Virus record (IMG/VR): IMGVR_UViG_3300028837_002133
Location: 1 to 24,439 of that record
Reading direction: 5' to 3' (one strand)
Source of the DNA: a virus
Length of the DNA: 24,439 nt
The translations under genes were made by a program, and so were the position numbers. Position 1 is the first letter of the stretch; the number at the start of each line of letters is the position of its first letter. Positions 3,962 to 18,404 of the stretch are shown here, piece after piece. Below the pieces are notes generated by a model. That model did not search any database. It was not told where the DNA came from and worked only from the letters and a program-made list of their open reading frames with translations.

Positions 3962-4344
3962 TACTCCTTCTCCTCAAATTCAAGAGTGATTGTCATTGTT
4001 TCTCCGCCGGGGAAACCATATGCTCTCGCCTCTCCAATAAATTCAAATGGATTATTTTGTAAATAACCAATCCATATGCTATTATTATGATCAGTAACAC
4101 GCATAGCACATCGATAATAAACCTTGAGAAAAGCTTTTAATTCTAATGCCTTATTACGAGCAAGGGTAAAATCCCACTGTAATCGTTTGCGACCTTTTTT
4201 AGGTTTTTTGTATGTATATAATGTGCCATTCATAGTTCTTATTGAATTTAATGTCGCAGTTAATTGAACTGAATCGCCCCAATTAGGACTAGGAAGTGTA
4301 GTCGTTGTTTGATATCCAGGATGTGGTGCATCTATTTTGAACAT
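3961..4344 (-). CDS. Distal-tail-like protein
   Basis: This 127-residue, beta-rich protein has no membrane or signal segment. It contains RLQWDFTLARNKALELKAFL, then RVTDHNNSIWIGYLQNNPFEF and a final TITLEFEEKE. That arrangement matches the C-terminal domain of the gene just upstream (LAINFIGLKKTEIDAVLTFL, IIDWEGREWVGVI, FTFEFEG), so the two are likely tandem paralogues. Small proteins of this pattern sit between the tape measure and hub genes and form rings at the tail end. The start overlaps the preceding stop (TAATG) with no obvious Shine-Dalgarno site, so it is probably translated by coupling. It probably joins the tube to the 974-residue tip protein. The exact assignment (distal tail ring or adaptor) is inferred. 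Confidence 0.65.
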   Translation of the reverse strand: MFKIDAPHPGYQTTTTLPSPNWGDSVQLTATLNSIRTMNGTLYTYKKPKKGRKRLQWDFTLARNKALELKAFLKVYYRCAMRVTDHNNSIWIGYLQNNPFEFIGEARAYGFPGGETMTITLEFEEKE

Positions 4345-5774
4345 TATACTACCATATATGTTGCATACTGAATTATATCCATAGTATGAATAAAACCACG
4401 GTTATAAATTACTTCTAAACTTAATACATCTGTAAGATTCATACTATTATCTTGCATATAACTTTCAACTAAAACGCCTTCAAATTCAAAAGTAAATGCC
4501 CAATTATCCTTGCCGTCTTGAGTAGCTGATTCATTCGGTGTCATAATAACACCTACCCATTCCCGCCCTTCCCAATCAATGATGCGAATTTCTTCTCCAG
4601 TATAATTATAAAGAAAAGTTAATACCGCGTCGATTTCAGTTTTTTTGAGTCCAATAAAATTAATAGCAAGTGTATTAACTTTTGGCCAATTTGGGTCAGC
4701 AAAAATACTTAATTTCCCCCCACGTGTTTCTCTATTTATTCGATTAACTGCATACCTATCAATATTATCTAATTCCGGTGCCCGTAATATAATTGTATCT
4801 GTAGGTTCTCCAATACCTGGATATACAAGTTTAAATCGCGTCGTGCTAGAGTCATGTTGAATAACTGGAATTACAGACGGGGGTGGAGAAGGAGCATTAG
4901 GGATTGTATTGTCCCCAATAAAAAGTGTATAATCTTTGTCACCACATATCTTATCAATATAGTATGTTAATGCGTGACCAACTATAGCACTATGTTGTAT
5001 AGTACGAACAAAATCACCATTAACATTAACTACGGATAATAATGAAAGATCAGTAGGCAAAATATTCTTACTTTTACCCTCAGAAACTAGTTGTACAAAA
5101 TTAATTGTACTTTCAGCTATATCTCGTTTCCATGCTTCCTGTACAAAATTTATAGTATGATTTGATGTTTCCTCATAAGTACGATTAAGACGTTGTATTA
5201 AATTAAGATCGTCATCGATTTCTACTGGTAACCAAGGACAACCTAAAATACCACTCACTTCTTGCTTTAAACTTGTAAGATAATGATTAATATAGAAATA
5301 ATGTGGCCCCTTCCACTCAAGAGCATGACTAAGATTCATTGTTTGAATAATAGATCGAGACAAACCGGCATCATAAGTGACGGCCTGTTGCAAATTCATT
5401 GTTGTTTCTATAGGGAAGAAATCTGATTCAATAAGTATATCATGTATATTTTGGGACAATACTAAATTAGTTGTTACAATAGCAGTATAAGTAGGATTTG
5501 CTTGTTGTATAATATTTAATGTATTTTCACAATCAAGAAAGAAACAAGAATTTGCCCATTGATTTAATCCTAGATTATTACTAACATTTTCATAATACAC
5601 ATCCGGAACACGACTATCATAATCATCAGTAGAAATGCCACCGGGATTAATATCAATACCACCAACATAATGGCTTGTTATAATGCGTATCTGTACCATC
5701 CCAACAAATATCTGTAAGCGCATCAATACTACTAATATCTTCACTATCTCTAATGGTAGATGTAAATTGTCCAC
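4344..5774 (-). CDS. Tail protein with Q-type repeats and distal-tail-like domain; 5' end frameshifted
   Basis: The uninterrupted frame gives 476 residues from a GTG at 5774, but that start has no ribosome binding site and the first ~30 residues are an out-of-frame reading of a repeat. The genuine start is probably the ATG at 5832 (separate entry), with a +1 shift near 5675-5692. From about residue 31 the sequence is coherent. It begins with a blade remnant (ITSHYVGGIDINPGGIS) and a cap (DYDSR...YYENVSN). About ten units of ~20 residues of the form T(M/I/L)(N)(L/F)xQ follow (e.g. TLNIIQQAN, TINFVQEAW, TINFVQLVS), then a proline linker (APSPPPS), a distal-tail-like domain (about 308-437) and two last Q-type units. 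The blade, cap and Q units also occur in the 730-residue neck gene. Likely role: a tail-end ring protein carrying an elongated decoration or adhesin arm. Whether the full-length protein is made is unknown. Confidence 0.65.
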   Translation of the reverse strand: MDNLHLPLEIVKILVVLMRLQIFVGMVQIRIITSHYVGGIDINPGGISTDDYDSRVPDVYYENVSNNLGLNQWANSCFFLDCENTLNIIQQANPTYTAIVTTNLVLSQNIHDILIESDFFPIETTMNLQQAVTYDAGLSRSIIQTMNLSHALEWKGPHYFYINHYLTSLKQEVSGILGCPWLPVEIDDDLNLIQRLNRTYEETSNHTINFVQEAWKRDIAESTINFVQLVSEGKSKNILPTDLSLLSVVNVNGDFVRTIQHSAIVGHALTYYIDKICGDKDYTLFIGDNTIPNAPSPPPSVIPVIQHDSSTTRFKLVYPGIGEPTDTIILRAPELDNIDRYAVNRINRETRGGKLSIFADPNWPKVNTLAINFIGLKKTEIDAVLTFLYNYTGEEIRIIDWEGREWVGVIMTPNESATQDGKDNWAFTFEFEGVLVESYMQDNSMNLTDVLSLEVIYNRGFIHTMDIIQYATYMVV

Positions 5775-5832
5775 TGATAAGATATAATATATCAGTCGAA
5801 CTACCAGCCCAGGGAGTAGCAGTAGTGGCCAT
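5653..5832 (-). pseudogene. Frame-separated N-terminal blade repeat of the downstream tail gene
   Basis: An ATG at 5832, 8 bases after AAAGG, opens a 59-codon frame beginning MATTATPWAGSSTD and ending at TGA (5653-5655). Residues 7-49 are a clear copy of the blade repeat of the 730-residue neck protein (PWAG...LYLISGQFTSTIRDSEDISSID...ICWDGTDT). After this the match jumps to the +1 frame (ITSHYVGGIDINPGGIS), which equals the second half of another blade. About 20 codons that would complete the second blade are missing, so a deletion inside the array that changed the frame explains the structure best. No classical slippery heptamer is visible at the junction. Alternatives are an assembly indel or unusual recoding. 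Confidence 0.7.
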
Positions 5833-12227: not shown

Positions 12228-12989
12228 TTACAATTCTAAACACTCAGTAGCATAGTCACTACGATTTATAGTGACTTGACTCACGTTACAACGACCAGAA
12301 ACGGCAATTGTAGCTTCCCCAAGGTCATACTCTAATGATTCCCAACGGAAATCATCCAGAGTTACCTTTTCGTCCGCATCTGTACCACAGGGTAAGCAAT
12401 GAAGAACTACCATATCGATAGCATAAGGCTCACACAAGTCATCAGAACTTGAAACCCATTCCGTAGCTTCACCAACTTGTTTGATTGCATCAACAGGTGT
12501 AATATCTTTACCACTTTCTGTGGTAACATATTCATAAACAAATTCTAAGGACACATCAACTGGCTGCTCATCACCTTCGCGTACCGTATCAAGGTCGCCT
12601 CGGTCGAGCAAGTATTCGTATTCCTTCGATTCTGTCCATGTAAGATTTCCTTCACCAATTTTTACCTTAATCTTTTGAGGTAAAAATGTAATTGCATCAC
12701 TTTGAGACGGTACAGCCGCGCCCCAAGCAGGTTTAAACTCAATATTCGTTGTTGGACTTGCATCAAGGGGTGTTCGACCAATAACAGTATATGTTGTGGT
12801 GTTACCCACAGTGTTAACAGTAAATCGTGCGCCGACAGATACCAAATCAACATCAGTTGCATTCAAAATAACTGTGTTAATATCGACATCGGTATCCGTT
12901 CCCCCTGGTGCCCCTTCTGCAATTACTGCATTACCACTTAAACCATCTTGAATATAGATGAGGCAATCACGTAATTCAATACGTGCCAT
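12228..12989 (-). CDS. Major tail tube protein, short paralogue
   Basis: This 253-residue beta-rich protein starts MARIELRDCLIYIQDGLSG. It has a strong AAGGAG site before the ATG. It is a paralogue of the next upstream gene: residues from about 110 to the end (KVKIGEGNLTWTESKEYEYLLDRGD, EGDEQPVDVSLEFVYEYV) are nearly identical in protein and closely similar in DNA, while the N-terminal third has diverged. Position before the G/T chaperones and tape measure gene identifies it as the tube protein. Cysteines near HCLPCGTD and SGRCNVS are conserved in both copies. It lacks the ~105-residue insertion of its sister, so it is the undecorated form. Confidence 0.85.
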   Translation of the reverse strand: MARIELRDCLIYIQDGLSGNAVIAEGAPGGTDTDVDINTVILNATDVDLVSVGARFTVNTVGNTTTYTVIGRTPLDASPTTNIEFKPAWGAAVPSQSDAITFLPQKIKVKIGEGNLTWTESKEYEYLLDRGDLDTVREGDEQPVDVSLEFVYEYVTTESGKDITPVDAIKQVGEATEWVSSSDDLCEPYAIDMVVLHCLPCGTDADEKVTLDDFRWESLEYDLGEATIAVSGRCNVSQVTINRSDYATECLEL

Positions 12990-13003: not shown

Positions 13004-14071
13004 TTACAGTAATTCTGTACAATCAGTAGAATAATCACCACGATCCACAGTAACTTGACTTACATTACAACGACCAGAAACAGCAATTGTAGCTTCCCCA
13101 AGATCATACTCTAATGACTCCCAACGGAAATTAGTTAAAGATGCCCTTTCATCTTGATCAGTACCGCAAGGTAAACAGTGAATAACTACCATGTCAATAG
13201 CATAAGGTTCACACAAGTCATCAGAACTTGAAACCCATTCCGTAGCTTCACCAACTTGTTTGATTGCATCAACAGGTGTGATATCTTTACCAGTTTCCGT
13301 GGTAACATATTCATAAACAAATTCTAAGGATACATCAACTGGTTGCTCATCGCCTTCGCGCACCGTGTCAAGGTCGCCTCGGTCAAGTAAGTATTCATAT
13401 TCTTTCGATTCTGTCCATGTGAGATTCCCCTCACCAATTTTCACCTTAAGTCTCTGAGAAATAAATGTAATTACATCATTCTGTGATGGGGTATTTACGC
13501 CCCACGCAGGTGAAAATACAACATTCGTCACTGGACTAATGCCACCTTTAGTTGTTTCTGTAATAACAACATTACCCGTATCAAGGTCTACATTAGCACC
13601 TACTATCATATTACAATCCGTCTCTACCAAATCCACAGCAAATGTAACAACCCAATCGGTGTCAGGACCAGGACCGCCTGTTACCGTTACATTATTAGCA
13701 CCAATAGTTGATAGCCCCTCTAAAGCAGCTGCAACAGCGGCATTAGTAGAATTCCATAAAAGATTTGCTGTTACCTGACCGTCAAAGTTAAGGGTAAAGT
13801 TTCCAGATGAAGCTGTTTGATCAATATTAATAGTTTGTACTTCATTAGTTCCAGTTCGTTCTTGGACAGTGTATGTTAAAGTATTACCCGCAGTATTAAC
13901 AGTAAAACGCGCACCAATAGGTACCAAATCAACATCAGTTGAATTCAAATTAACTGTGTCAATATCAACATCAGTATCAGCCGCGCCGGGCGTCGTTTCT
14001 GCAACATTTGCGCTGCCACTTAAACCATCTTGAATTAAGATGGCGCAATCACGTAATTCAATGCGTGCCAT
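13004..14071 (-). CDS. Major tail tube protein, long paralogue with inserted domain
   Basis: This 355-residue protein shares start (MARIELRDC) and C-terminal two-thirds with the 253-residue sister gene directly downstream. It carries an extra domain at about residues 74-178 between TYTVQERT and SPVTNVVF. The ribosome binding site is strong (GAGGAG, 8 bases before ATG). The pair comes from tandem duplication followed by insertion or loss of a decoration domain. Several long-tailed phages make plain and extended tube subunits from one gene by frameshifting; here two separate genes could do the same. Either or both may be incorporated in the tube; which is dominant cannot be told from sequence. 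Confidence 0.85.
   Translation of the reverse strand: MARIELRDCAILIQDGLSGSANVAETTPGAADTDVDIDTVNLNSTDVDLVPIGARFTVNTAGNTLTYTVQERTGTNEVQTINIDQTASSGNFTLNFDGQVTANLLWNSTNAAVAAALEGLSTIGANNVTVTGGPGPDTDWVVTFAVDLVETDCNMIVGANVDLDTGNVVITETTKGGISPVTNVVFSPAWGVNTPSQNDVITFISQRLKVKIGEGNLTWTESKEYEYLLDRGDLDTVREGDEQPVDVSLEFVYEYVTTETGKDITPVDAIKQVGEATEWVSSSDDLCEPYAIDMVVIHCLPCGTDQDERASLTNFRWESLEYDLGEATIAVSGRCNVSQVTVDRGDYSTDCTELL
13538..13852 (-). other. Inserted beta domain in the long tail tube protein
   Basis: This segment has no counterpart in the short tube protein. It reads VQTINIDQTASSGNFTLNFD, ...AAVAAALEGLSTIGANNVTV, TGGPGPDTDWVVTF. The pattern (QTI...G.FTL.FDGQ.T, AAAL..L..IG..NV.VTGGPG, VTF) recurs as an add-on domain in many phage tail and head proteins, where it is thought to be surface-exposed. 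Boundaries come from aligning the two paralogues by eye and may be off by a few residues. Confidence 0.75.
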
Positions 14072-14600: not shown

Positions 14601-16793
14601 TTATGACGTTGTTATTTGACTATTTAAGACAAATTGTTCTGTCAATTGAATGTGGTAAATTTGCTCAGGTTTTACTCCTTTTACTTCTTTAGCAACTATA
14701 ACCCAAGCAGTATGCTGTTCAAATTCTTCGATATTTTTAATTTCATAACGCCTGTTATTATAAATAAGCCAATCATCATTTACAATTTCATAATCAATAG
14801 GTAAGTCTCTAGCGTCAATAATAAACATTCGAGTTCCAGCATCATATGAACCCCCATAGACAAACATTTTATTTGCTGAGATATGGGCTATTGTTTGTAT
14901 AGCTTCTCTTGCAATTTTAACAGGTAAAACAATACATTTTCGTATTGTAATTGCACTCTTATCTACAGTTTTTACACCTGTTTGATAATCAGTTTCAGCA
15001 TTAATAAGTTTATAAAGATCAACCTTATTCCCATATTGCCGTTTCAAACTATATAATGTCTTACGTATAAATCTATTTAGCATACTGTTCCCTCCAATTT
15101 CCGTAGTGGGGGGGGGCATTACATTTGCTGATACAATTTGATTAAATAATATGGTATTGATTGGAAATTGACCGATTGCTTTAATTGTAGTTTGATTTAA
15201 GCTTAGGGTATTACTTAAAGATCGAAAATATTCAACATTAGATGAAAGTACTTGAACAAAATTAATAGTGTTATCTGTTAATTTCTCATAAATTAAACCA
15301 CCAATTCTCTCACTAATAGCATTAGTACATATACCAACTACTACATTATCAATTGCACTAACATCTTCACTTTCTTTAAGTGTAGATGTAAATTGCCCGC
15401 TTTGAAGATAGAGTTTATCATCACCAGCACCACACCAAAGTGTATTACTACCATCCCAAGAAATACCAGTTGGATCAGTATCAATACTACCAACAGCATG
15501 ACTAGTTATTAAAGTAGATGTAAATTGTCCACTTTGAAGATATAATTTATTATCAGTTATTCCACTCCAAGGTGTATTTGTCCCATCGTAAGAAATACCA
15601 TGAGGTATTAAATCAATACCATCAATTACTTCACTATCTTTGATAGTAGAACTAAATTGCCCGGATGTTAAATATAATTTATCAGCTTGAGCACCAGACC
15701 AGGGTGTATTATTATTATCTGCTGATATATCTGTGATAGCAATGTCAATCCCATTAATATCTTGACTTGTTTTAAGTATAGATGTAAATTGCCCACTTTG
15801 AAGATATAATTTATTAGCATAATCACTTGACCAAGGTGTATTCGTACCGTCCCAACAGATACCAATTGCAAAAGACGGAGAGAGACTACTTACATCTTCA
15901 CTATCTTTTATAATAGATGTAAATTGTCCTGATTGCAAATACAATTTATGTGTCTGTTCACCAGCCCAAGGTGTATCGTAAAGTTTTGCCCCGCTTGCAT
16001 TCTGCACAAATGTTATAGTATCAGTTAATGATCGATTAAAAATGGAACCTGATTGAGATGCACTTTGATTTAATGTAATTGCATTAGTTACTGATTTCTC
16101 GATAATTTCCCCGCTAATATCAAGTCTACTATCAACATCATTGGTACAAACATTTCCTGGAGTTGAATCAATATCACCAATATATTTACTAGTTTTAATA
16201 GTAGAAGTAAATTGTCCTGATTGTAAATATAATTTATCGGCTTCCCAACCGCACCAAGGAGTATTTACACCGTCATAAGAAATACCAGTAGGATATATAT
16301 CGGTACCGTTAATATCTTCACTAGTTTTAATAGTAGAAGTAAATTGTCCCGATTGTAAATATAATTTACCATCTGTAATATCAATCCAAGGAGTATTAGT
16401 ACCGTCATAAGAAATATCAAGAGGAGCGGTACCAGTAACATTTTGACTTGTTTTAATAATGGACGTAAATTGTTCTGATTGTAAAAATAATTTATTACTT
16501 TCATTACCGCACCAAGGTGTATTAATACCATCCCAAGATATACCTCCAACATCATTATCAATAATACTAACATCTTCGCTATCTTTAATAGTAGAAGTAA
16601 ATTGTCCACTTTGAAGATAAAGTTTATCATTTGCTTGACCGCACCAAGGAGTATTAGTACCGTCCCAAGTTATACCAGTAGAATATATTTCAATACTATT
16701 AATATCTTCACTAGTTTTAATAGTAGAAGTAAATTGTCCTGATTGTAAGTAAAGTTTATCGTCCGCTTGACCACACCACGGAGTATCAGCCAT
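14601..16793 (-). CDS. Blade-repeat neck protein fused to a head-closure-like domain
   Basis: This 730-residue frame has three parts. Residues 3-219 are five blades of 42-45 residues (TPWCG...DKLYLQSGQFTSTIKTS...GISWDGTN), followed by a cap and Q-type module (220-273: CTND.DSRL...IIEK, AITLNQSAS, ITFVQNAS). Residues 274-491 are five more blades, again with cap and Q-type repeats to ~563. Residues 571-730 are a separate-looking domain (MLNRFIRKTLYSLKRQYGNK, ...DDWLIYNNRRYEIKNIEEFE) that fits head-closure proteins in size and position. Five-blade blocks of ~44 residues suggest two small beta-propellers, as in tachylectin-2-like lectins; this is inference. The start has GGGA about 9 bases upstream. 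A C9 run and an internal Shine-Dalgarno plus ATG at 15083 mean the last domain may be made alone. The likely role is a neck protein with optional host- or glycan-binding decoration. Confidence 0.75.
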   Translation of the reverse strand: MADTPWCGQADDKLYLQSGQFTSTIKTSEDINSIEIYSTGITWDGTNTPWCGQANDKLYLQSGQFTSTIKDSEDVSIIDNDVGGISWDGINTPWCGNESNKLFLQSEQFTSIIKTSQNVTGTAPLDISYDGTNTPWIDITDGKLYLQSGQFTSTIKTSEDINGTDIYPTGISYDGVNTPWCGWEADKLYLQSGQFTSTIKTSKYIGDIDSTPGNVCTNDVDSRLDISGEIIEKSVTNAITLNQSASQSGSIFNRSLTDTITFVQNASGAKLYDTPWAGEQTHKLYLQSGQFTSIIKDSEDVSSLSPSFAIGICWDGTNTPWSSDYANKLYLQSGQFTSILKTSQDINGIDIAITDISADNNNTPWSGAQADKLYLTSGQFSSTIKDSEVIDGIDLIPHGISYDGTNTPWSGITDNKLYLQSGQFTSTLITSHAVGSIDTDPTGISWDGSNTLWCGAGDDKLYLQSGQFTSTLKESEDVSAIDNVVVGICTNAISERIGGLIYEKLTDNTINFVQVLSSNVEYFRSLSNTLSLNQTTIKAIGQFPINTILFNQIVSANVMPPPTTEIGGNSMLNRFIRKTLYSLKRQYGNKVDLYKLINAETDYQTGVKTVDKSAITIRKCIVLPVKIAREAIQTIAHISANKMFVYGGSYDAGTRMFIIDARDLPIDYEIVNDDWLIYNNRRYEIKNIEEFEQHTAWVIVAKEVKGVKPEQIYHIQLTEQFVLNSQITTS
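15081..15095 (-). promoter_or_regulatory. Internal ribosome binding site and start for the head-closure domain
   Basis: Inside the 730-codon frame the transcript carries GGAGGG (15090-15095), six bases, then ATG (15081-15083). The site is as good as the best gene starts in this window. Initiation here would give a 160-residue protein of normal head-closure size, ending at 14601. Confidence 0.75.
15108..15116 (-). repeat. Run of nine C at the repeat/head-closure junction
   Basis: The coding strand reads ATG, nine C, ACTACG, giving MPPPTT in the present frame. It is the longest homopolymer of G or C in the window. One base more or fewer would end the upstream frame at TAG or TAA immediately inside the internal start at 15083. 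Confidence 0.9.
15321..15974 (-). repeat. Blade repeat block B (five units)
   Basis: Five tandem coding units of 41-45 codons (residues 274-491) share TPW(S/C/A), KLYLQSGQF(T/S)S, (I/L)K.S and GI(S/C)(W/Y)DG.N. They are closely similar in DNA as well. The final unit ends in CTN and leads to the same cap as block A. The array is coding, not intergenic. Confidence 0.9.
16137..16787 (-). repeat. Blade repeat block A (five units)
   Basis: Five tandem coding units (residues 3-219) of the same family as block B. The third unit is the most divergent (LFLQSEQF) and the fourth lacks the usual CG after TPW. The block ends in NVCTND plus a cap resembling that of block B, so the five-unit-plus-cap block appears to have been duplicated as a whole. 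Confidence 0.9.
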
Positions 16794-16795
16794 AA

Positions 16796-17431
16796 TTATT
16801 TTCCCATATCATTTACCGCTTGGATTACTTCAATTAAACTGACATCGTTTATATGATGACAGGGATAATCAAAATGTGCCCAAATTTTAAATCCAGCTGC
16901 CTTCACCTTTTGACAAAATGAATAATCACCACCCATTTCTACTGTACCATCTTCTTTCCATTGTCGCATAAATGGTTGTTTATTTTTTAATTTTGAAATT
17001 ACGCGTCTCGCTACTAAAAAACAACCACTACCAATTGCATCAACCTCTTGTAATCCATTTGTATTAGAATGTGGTCGATAAGCTTCCTCTTTATCATCCC
17101 AATTAAGAGCATTAAAATACCAGGGTTGATCGCCTTTTACTTTATTGCACCAAACAGGAGTTGGACAACCTATTAAATCACAATCATATTCCACTAAATC
17201 TAATGGGTTGTTAATGGGAGGGTTGTCGTCATCAATACTTAACCAATACTCTTCCCCACCGTTAAGAAAATCCTTCATACAATGGTGTAAATTATTGACA
17301 TATGGAGAATGAGTTGGACAATCATGACGAATTTGATAACGACGATCGGCTAACATTTTACAAATGGTGAAATGAGTTAGCTTGTGCAGCCACCCTGAAC
17401 CATTCGGCACCGTAATGTAGATTGATGTCAT
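16796..17431 (-). CDS. GT-A-like glycosyltransferase
   Basis: This 211-residue soluble protein starts MTSIYITVPNGSGWLHKLTH. It carries an aspartate motif LSIDDDNPP (DDD at 67-69), fitting the metal/nucleotide-sugar site of GT-A enzymes. It also has VDAIGSGCFLVARR (130-143), GGDYSFCQKVKAAGFKIW (167-184, a likely catalytic-acid region) and a late histidine pair (192-193). This order is that of family-2-like glycosyltransferases, here compact. The ATG overlaps the stop of the HNH gene (ATGA), so translation is coupled. Lying next to the blade-repeat neck gene, it may glycosylate a virion protein or modify a host surface sugar. Substrate and acceptor cannot be read from the sequence. Confidence 0.75.
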   Translation of the reverse strand: MTSIYITVPNGSGWLHKLTHFTICKMLADRRYQIRHDCPTHSPYVNNLHHCMKDFLNGGEEYWLSIDDDNPPINNPLDLVEYDCDLIGCPTPVWCNKVKGDQPWYFNALNWDDKEEAYRPHSNTNGLQEVDAIGSGCFLVARRVISKLKNKQPFMRQWKEDGTVEMGGDYSFCQKVKAAGFKIWAHFDYPCHHINDVSLIEVIQAVNDMGK

Positions 17432-17853
17432 TTTCTTGAATTTATTAAATATTGAATGGCTGAGGTCAAAATTTTAATATCATCTTTTGCGTTACTTAAA
17501 AGTGTATTACAATGATAACAAAGTAATCCTCTAATTTCACCCGTTTGGTGGTTATGGTCAACGTGAAATCTTCCCATGCCTCCTGGTGTTTCTGTTCCAC
17601 AAATTTTACATCTTCCACCTTGTTTTTCTAATAATTTATCATAATCTTTTAGAGTAATACCATAAGAACGTAATAAGTGATTTTCTTTTGATCTTTTTTT
17701 TGCACATTCAATACAGTATGTATCAGTTGATTTATAACCACAAGAATTAACATTAAATTCACTTAATGGTTTGACTATTTTACATTTTGTGCAATATTTA
17801 CTATCTTTGGTTTCAAGTTGTTCTAATTCTTTCCGTCTCTTCTTACTAATCAT
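17428..17853 (-). CDS. HNH endonuclease of the endonuclease VII type
   Basis: This 141-residue protein has an N-terminal cysteine knuckle (C21-xx-C24, C47-xx-C50) and a second one around the active site (C82-xx-C85, C112-xx-C115). The core is HVDHNHQTGEIRGLLCYHCN (97-116), characteristic of the recombination endonuclease VII family: His/Asp/Asn for metal binding and catalysis, cysteines for zinc. Copies inside late gene clusters are often free-standing homing endonucleases rather than DNA-packaging resolvases. No interrupted gene flanks it, so it is free-standing and not in an intron. It lacks a clear ribosome binding site and follows the preceding stop by two bases. It may help mobilise the accessory stretch. 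Confidence 0.9.
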   Translation of the reverse strand: MISKKRRKELEQLETKDSKYCTKCKIVKPLSEFNVNSCGYKSTDTYCIECAKKRSKENHLLRSYGITLKDYDKLLEKQGGRCKICGTETPGGMGRFHVDHNHQTGEIRGLLCYHCNTLLSNAKDDIKILTSAIQYLINSRK

Positions 17854-17855
17854 AA

Positions 17856-18404
17856 TTATACTTTAATATAAGTGGAAAGAATCTCAACTTGTAGATCAAT
17901 TTTAGCATCAACCCATTTCTTTTTCAAATTCTTACGGATACCCCGATAATTTTGTTCACTAGGATCGAGGCACTTCGCTCGCGCAGCTACAATTTCTGCA
18001 CTTGGAGCAGGGGCCACTTCTAAATCTTCTAATTGCTTTCTAGCTGTAATACCTTGTAAAACATCTGTGTCAAGGAATTCAGTAGGCATTCGCACCATAG
18101 CCCGTTGATCATAAAATGTTTCAAACTCAGTTTCATCAATAATTGAAACAGTATCAGGAAATTGCACAACAGCTGCGTTGGCAAAATCCTCAGGAACTAA
18201 AGTACATGCAGTACCATGATCGGCACCTGTACCTAAATTCTCAATTTTATCATAAAACCAACCAGTACCTTTTGAATCGATAAATTTAGACCATGGTTGA
18301 TTATCACGTATAGATGAATCAATTGCATTAAAATTAGGCCAATCAGCTTCACCAGTAGGGCGCCGCTTCAAAAGTACTTTAATAGGAACTAAATCAGTTT
18401 TCAT
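17856..18404 (-). CDS. Conserved-looking protein of unknown function
   Basis: This 182-residue soluble protein has GAGG seven to eight bases before the ATG. It starts MKTDLVPIKVLLKRRPTGEA. An acidic middle section contains a recurring FPDTVSIIDETEFETFYDQR pattern, and a basic helical end reads GIRKNLKKKWVDAKIDLQVE. No catalytic motif, membrane span or signal is visible. It sits between the sulfotransferase-like fragment and the HNH gene, downstream of the coat protein. A structural or head-completion role is possible from position only. I do not recognise the family. Confidence 0.6.
   Translation of the reverse strand: MKTDLVPIKVLLKRRPTGEADWPNFNAIDSSIRDNQPWSKFIDSKGTGWFYDKIENLGTGADHGTACTLVPEDFANAAVVQFPDTVSIIDETEFETFYDQRAMVRMPTEFLDTDVLQGITARKQLEDLEVAPAPSAEIVAARAKCLDPSEQNYRGIRKNLKKKWVDAKIDLQVEILSTYIKV

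Follow-up and report, generated by a model that had tools for sequence, protein, structure and literature searches.

A propeller-repeat gene in the head-tail region

The stretch of DNA analysed here, referred to as the window, comes from an uncultured tailed virus of bacteria; its IMG/VR record is 24,439 bases long, with 37.7% G+C. Its tailed-phage structural genes encode a portal protein (PHROG 145), a P22-type coat protein and two similar tail proteins; an ORF of 1479 aa is probably the tape measure, judged by its size and position. The gene under study is a 730-aa ORF that joins repeats to a head-closure domain, and the following features were assigned to it and to the genes beside it.

14601–16793, minus strand: 730-aa ORF with ten repeats (2 x 5), a beta stalk and a head-closure domain
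16125–16784, minus strand: repeat set 1, five ~44-aa repeats (TPWCG..DKLYLQSGQFTST), a presumed five-bladed propeller
15306–15974, minus strand: repeat set 2, five repeats, a presumed second propeller
15117–15305, minus strand: NTLxLNQ-type stalk, from repeat set 2 to the C tract
15108–15116, minus strand: C9 homopolymer, read CCC CCC CCC (Pro3), at the joint of the repeat/stalk part and the head-closure part
15090–15095, minus strand: Shine-Dalgarno sequence GGAGGG of the internal start, -9.8 kcal/mol
15081–15083, minus strand: internal ATG of a 160-aa head-closure protein, kept in the related contig L004
15077–15079, minus strand: TAA that closes the upstream frame at C8 or C11, 4 bases after the A of the internal ATG
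15073–15075, minus strand: TAG that closes the upstream frame at C7 or C10, 8 bases after the A of the internal ATG
14601–15083, minus strand: head-closure (stopper) domain, a stand-alone gene in most relatives
16796–17431, minus strand: glycosyltransferase-like gene adjoining the fusion, weakly similar to PHROG glycosyltransferases
17428–17853, minus strand: endonuclease VII gene, within an inserted cassette
17856–18404, minus strand: 182-aa cassette gene, present too in L076, L101 and L102
18701–18979, minus strand: 92-aa gene, which immediately precedes the neck gene in cassette-free relatives

By its position, the 92-aa gene is probably a head-tail adaptor. The tail genes at window 12228–12989 and 13004–14071 lie in tandem, are mutually similar (about 66–71% in pieces) and differ in length; they probably encode major tail proteins, and two such copies occur also in several relatives. 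In L017 (4596–5226) and L010 (2039–2941), the coat protein gene is split by group I introns, for which Rfam RF00028 gave E values of 5e-11 and 5e-7, respectively, both under the gathering score; the L017 intron contains an endonuclease VII-like ORF.

The ~44-aa repeat comes in fives. Its count is 5, 10 or 15 in 20 of the 23 closed ORFs that bear it, and the five-repeat module is found on many phage proteins with differing C-terminal parts (L023–L057), 5, 10 or 15 repeats being the usual number. The AlphaFold model of the propeller has a pLDDT of 34, and a profile match of the window repeats to the P68 tail fibre is weak (E = 0.24). A broken copy of the repeat lies on the minus strand at window 5496–5832, where one blade, with an ATG near 5832, goes out of frame and the end of a last blade then resumes in the frame of ORF 4344–5774. 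This copy looks like the product of a deletion between repeats that involved no homopolymer.

The head-closure domain and its fusions in relatives

A Foldseek search with the predicted model of the C-terminal domain (pLDDT 70.8) matched the T1 stopper (9l0e, E = 1.7e-5) and further neck or stopper structures, including the SPP1 gp16 complex (7z4w, E = 3e-3), together with 152 viral models at E <= 0.001. In relatives the gene order is coat, 92 aa, neck, 84 aa and tail proteins, placing the neck gene in the head-tail region. Profile searches of the neck family returned weak matches to PHROG 161 (Hc1) for 20 of its 24 members (best E = 1.8e-4) and to Pfam PF05521 for 8 of the 24 (best E = 0.011), none of which reached the curated family cut-off. 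Predicted stopper fold and gene position together identify the C-terminal domain as a head-closure protein, and the assignment made in the initial annotation, from sequence alone, is upheld by the fold match to the T1 and SPP1 stoppers. Neither the ORF nor its neck domain had a match among 50,697 phage records searched at the DNA and protein level, tblastn with the 730-aa ORF included, and the neck alignment found no relative in bacterial and archaeal genomes. Its profile matches to unrelated solved proteins were taken as chance.

Homologous fusions occur in other records. The more distant L076 (contig 3300009788_000272) carries the 92-aa gene, the 182-aa gene, a glycosyltransferase-like gene 77% identical to that of the window, and fifteen repeats leading into the neck domain, so that only the endonuclease VII gene is missing from its cassette. 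The propeller-neck fusion of L076 is uninterrupted, with neither a C run nor an internal ATG, and its junction recurs in L075, from another sample. Judged by these sequences, the propeller-neck fusion is real: the joint exists, and it persists where tract and internal start are absent. Because L076 and L075 are fused without the tract, the fusion works without a switch.

Other relatives extend the same neck protein at its C-terminus. L069 and L009 bear a different, kelch-like propeller there. L087 and L088, whose neck ORFs run to 1646 and 1749 aa, continue into a very long series of NTLTLxQ-type repeats; we read this sequence as a stalk that exceeds a thousand residues by a wide margin, attached to the neck C-terminus and capped by a lectin-like domain, and the extended head-closure protein is probably a neck fibre. 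Since relatives fuse different modules to it, the head-closure protein repeatedly acts as a mounting point for arms.

The cytosine run and the internal start

At the joint, the peptide that spans the tract reads ...ANVMPPPTTEIGGNSMLNR. The C9 reported in the initial annotation as the sole long C/G homopolymer, lying between repeats and head-closure domain, is confirmed at 15108–15116. It is the only C/G run longer than six in the window, where a first-order model expects about 0.04 runs of nine or more. Outside this clade, viral loci that are related or bear propellers, 769,628 bases in total, hold four C/G runs of seven and none of eight or more. By this model and this comparison set, the coding homopolymer is rarer than chance. 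CCC is the rarest proline codon in the window, used for 30 of 278 Pro codons.

The frame through C9 is open to the stop of the ORF (14601–16793). The frame arithmetic given earlier also holds, with C9 fused, C8 ending at TAA and C10 at TAG just past the internal ATG. Both stops overlap the conserved Leu-Asn-Arg codons just after this ATG, and neither non-fusion frame runs for more than about 13 codons past the tract. Alternative-frame stops come equally close to 6.2% of codons; because near stops are found at this 6% of codons, the stop/start overlap alone is weak evidence.

Twelve bases separate the C9 from GGAGGG, and six more precede the ATG. The strength of this Shine-Dalgarno sequence is strong evidence for the internal start that had been proposed: it ranks first among 149 internal in-frame ATGs and equals the best gene starts. 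The ATG is kept in L004 behind a Shine-Dalgarno sequence of -10.1 kcal/mol that differs in its letters (AAAGGGGG). A free neck protein from this ATG would start MLNRF and be a few residues shorter than its stand-alone homologues. RNA structure at the C9 site is ordinary (z = 0.31), with no stimulatory structure for a programmed frameshift. A second arrangement of this kind, C9 followed by a Shine-Dalgarno sequence and an ATG, occurs at L133:6146–6189 in an in-frame ORF of 156 + 98 codons with 63% G+C. Among the viral-contig loci listed for C9, GGAGG and ATG, L133 alone has at least 100 codons upstream in frame and at least 60 downstream.

Within the clade, by contrast, this one site has C9 in the window, A+C8 in L004 and, in L005, a run of C11 or longer. 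L004 is 86% identical to the window in DNA, and its A+C8 yields an in-frame fusion, with frames and stops arranged as in the window. Over 7,171 bases, the record L005/L013 (contig 3300008517_000768) differs from the window only by one SNP (14370) and two extra Cs. This contig ends inside the C run, making C11 a minimum; C12 or more is possible, and 12 would be in frame. The longer tract fits mixed lengths, and it could be an artefact of PCR or assembly slippage. In the count across related genomes suggested in the initial annotation, this C11 is the only sign of length variation, and it appears only at a contig end; the records that span the tract (the window and L004) are both in frame. Comparison of the window with L004 revealed only 59% identity in the 100 nt upstream of the tract, an unchanged C8 plus ACTACG, and about 86–91% identity downstream. 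This pattern suggests that the C run either is kept or sits at the edge of an exchanged module.

A candidate switch, its alternatives and known systems

We propose that the gene encodes a neck-anchored adhesin, in which two presumed propellers on a beta stalk would be carried N-terminal to a head-closure ring protein. The C9 at the joint may act as a hypermutable contingency tract where slippage shifts the frame. In-frame lengths (C9, C6 and C12, and A+C8 in L004) would display the propellers covalently on the neck, and at other lengths the propeller chain would stop just past the internal ATG and be released. The essential head-closure protein would be made in every state from the strong internal start, and switching would therefore cost no assembly function. 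In the fused state, armed and bare subunits may mix in one ring. The earlier logic, that one base sets fused versus released while downstream translation is kept, agrees with the frames and the internal start; switching in vivo, release, a binding role and mixed rings are what we infer from them.

The most likely of the readings, though no more than an even call, is that a hypermutable C tract toggles anchored and released propellers with the neck protein always made from its own start. Confidence stands at about one half because no contig has an out-of-frame tract with both flanks and because the data are sequence records, not reads. That the virus encodes a homopolymer phase-variation switch, with the adhesin on the neck ring or released and the internal start keeping the ring protein, is tentative and falls somewhat short of an even chance on the sequence.

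A fixed gene with two products would account for much of the same evidence and is possible, if rather unlikely. The outer start would yield the fusion and the internal start the free head-closure protein, giving a partly armed ring, while the C run would be a proline linker that is slippery by chance and whose length changes are rare, harmful or artefacts. The in-frame state of both tract-spanning records, the strong and conserved internal start, the fusion of L076 and L075 without a tract, and the placing of C11 at a contig end alone are all as this reading would have them. It leaves unexplained why a pure C run persists at 37.7% G+C, when every other proline codon is used more often than CCC, and why the tract is longer in a record that otherwise differs by a single SNP. 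Slippage could instead be programmed in expression, with the genome fixed at C9 and the polymerase or ribosome slipping to give fused and released forms in a set ratio, as happens in phages whose proteins gain domains through a programmed frameshift. In Listeria phages, which seldom use CCC, this codon serves for +1 shifting (PMC5009743), and the early stops in both other frames would suit such a device. We judge it improbable: RNA structure is not unusual, the genomic frame already gives the fusion and the internal start the free neck protein, and L005 differs in the length of the genomic tract itself.

The initial annotation named a miscount of the tract as the main alternative, under which propeller and neck would be separate overlapping genes. 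In its favour, runs of a single base are prone to error, most relatives have the neck gene by itself, and the stop/start overlaps are neat in both other frames. However, L004, a separate contig, is in frame by a different route (A+C8), and L076 and L075, from two samples, show the same kind of fusion without a tract; an error of this sort is largely excluded and has very little probability left. Equally slight is the chance that the C run pairs with GGAGGG, coupling neck to propeller translation, or that it marks a recombination joint of arm modules. The jump in identity at the tract between L004 and the window would suit the joint, and pairing is possible, as CCC.CCA with UGG.GGG in the window and as C5 with G5 in L004. 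Yet C9 ranks 43rd of 64 synonymous choices, and the strength of pairing hardly changes from C6 to C12. Because pairing by C9 is neither optimal nor length-dependent, masking of the Shine-Dalgarno sequence needs no pure run, and it was rejected as the cause of the run.

Among the means by which phages vary their displayed adhesins are invertible segments, diversity-generating retroelements and programmed frameshifts. If the switch proposed here is real, slippage at a homopolymer, backed by a fail-safe internal start, would offer a simpler way to produce mixed virion populations, and one that is inherited. The switch aside, phages of this little-described group appear to use the head-closure protein repeatedly as a mount for arms of propeller, stalk or lectin-like type. 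Searches of the open-access literature turned up no description of a homopolymer switch in a phage structural gene.

The window's domain resembles SPP1 gp16 and the T1 stopper (PHROG 161 Hc1, PF05521) in predicted fold, in its gene position between coat and tail, and in weak profile matches. Unlike these stoppers, the window protein has large N-terminal display modules, and its relatives have C-terminal ones. Lactococcal 936 phages carry the neck passage structure and TpeX as ancillary carbohydrate-binding modules on neck or tail, and TpeX arms only part of the subunits, via a programmed frameshift (PMC6669499). The TpeX switch is translational and acts on the major tail protein, whereas the window has the head-closure protein as its anchor and a homopolymer at the joint, and would make the bare protein from a separate start. 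The staphylococcal phi11 (PMC4901313) and P68 receptor-binding proteins are five-bladed, and the window repeats likewise come in fives; those propellers are on the baseplate or tail, and the window's presumed propellers would be on the neck; any homology between them is putative. Besides the lactococcal decorations, the nearest described parallel is homopolymer phase variation in bacteria such as Campylobacter (PMC6321876), where the length of a coding C/G run of 8–11 sets the reading frame, as proposed for the window. What would set the window apart from the Campylobacter loci is that its tract lies in a virus structural gene and is a candidate toggle between fusion and release, not between on and off.
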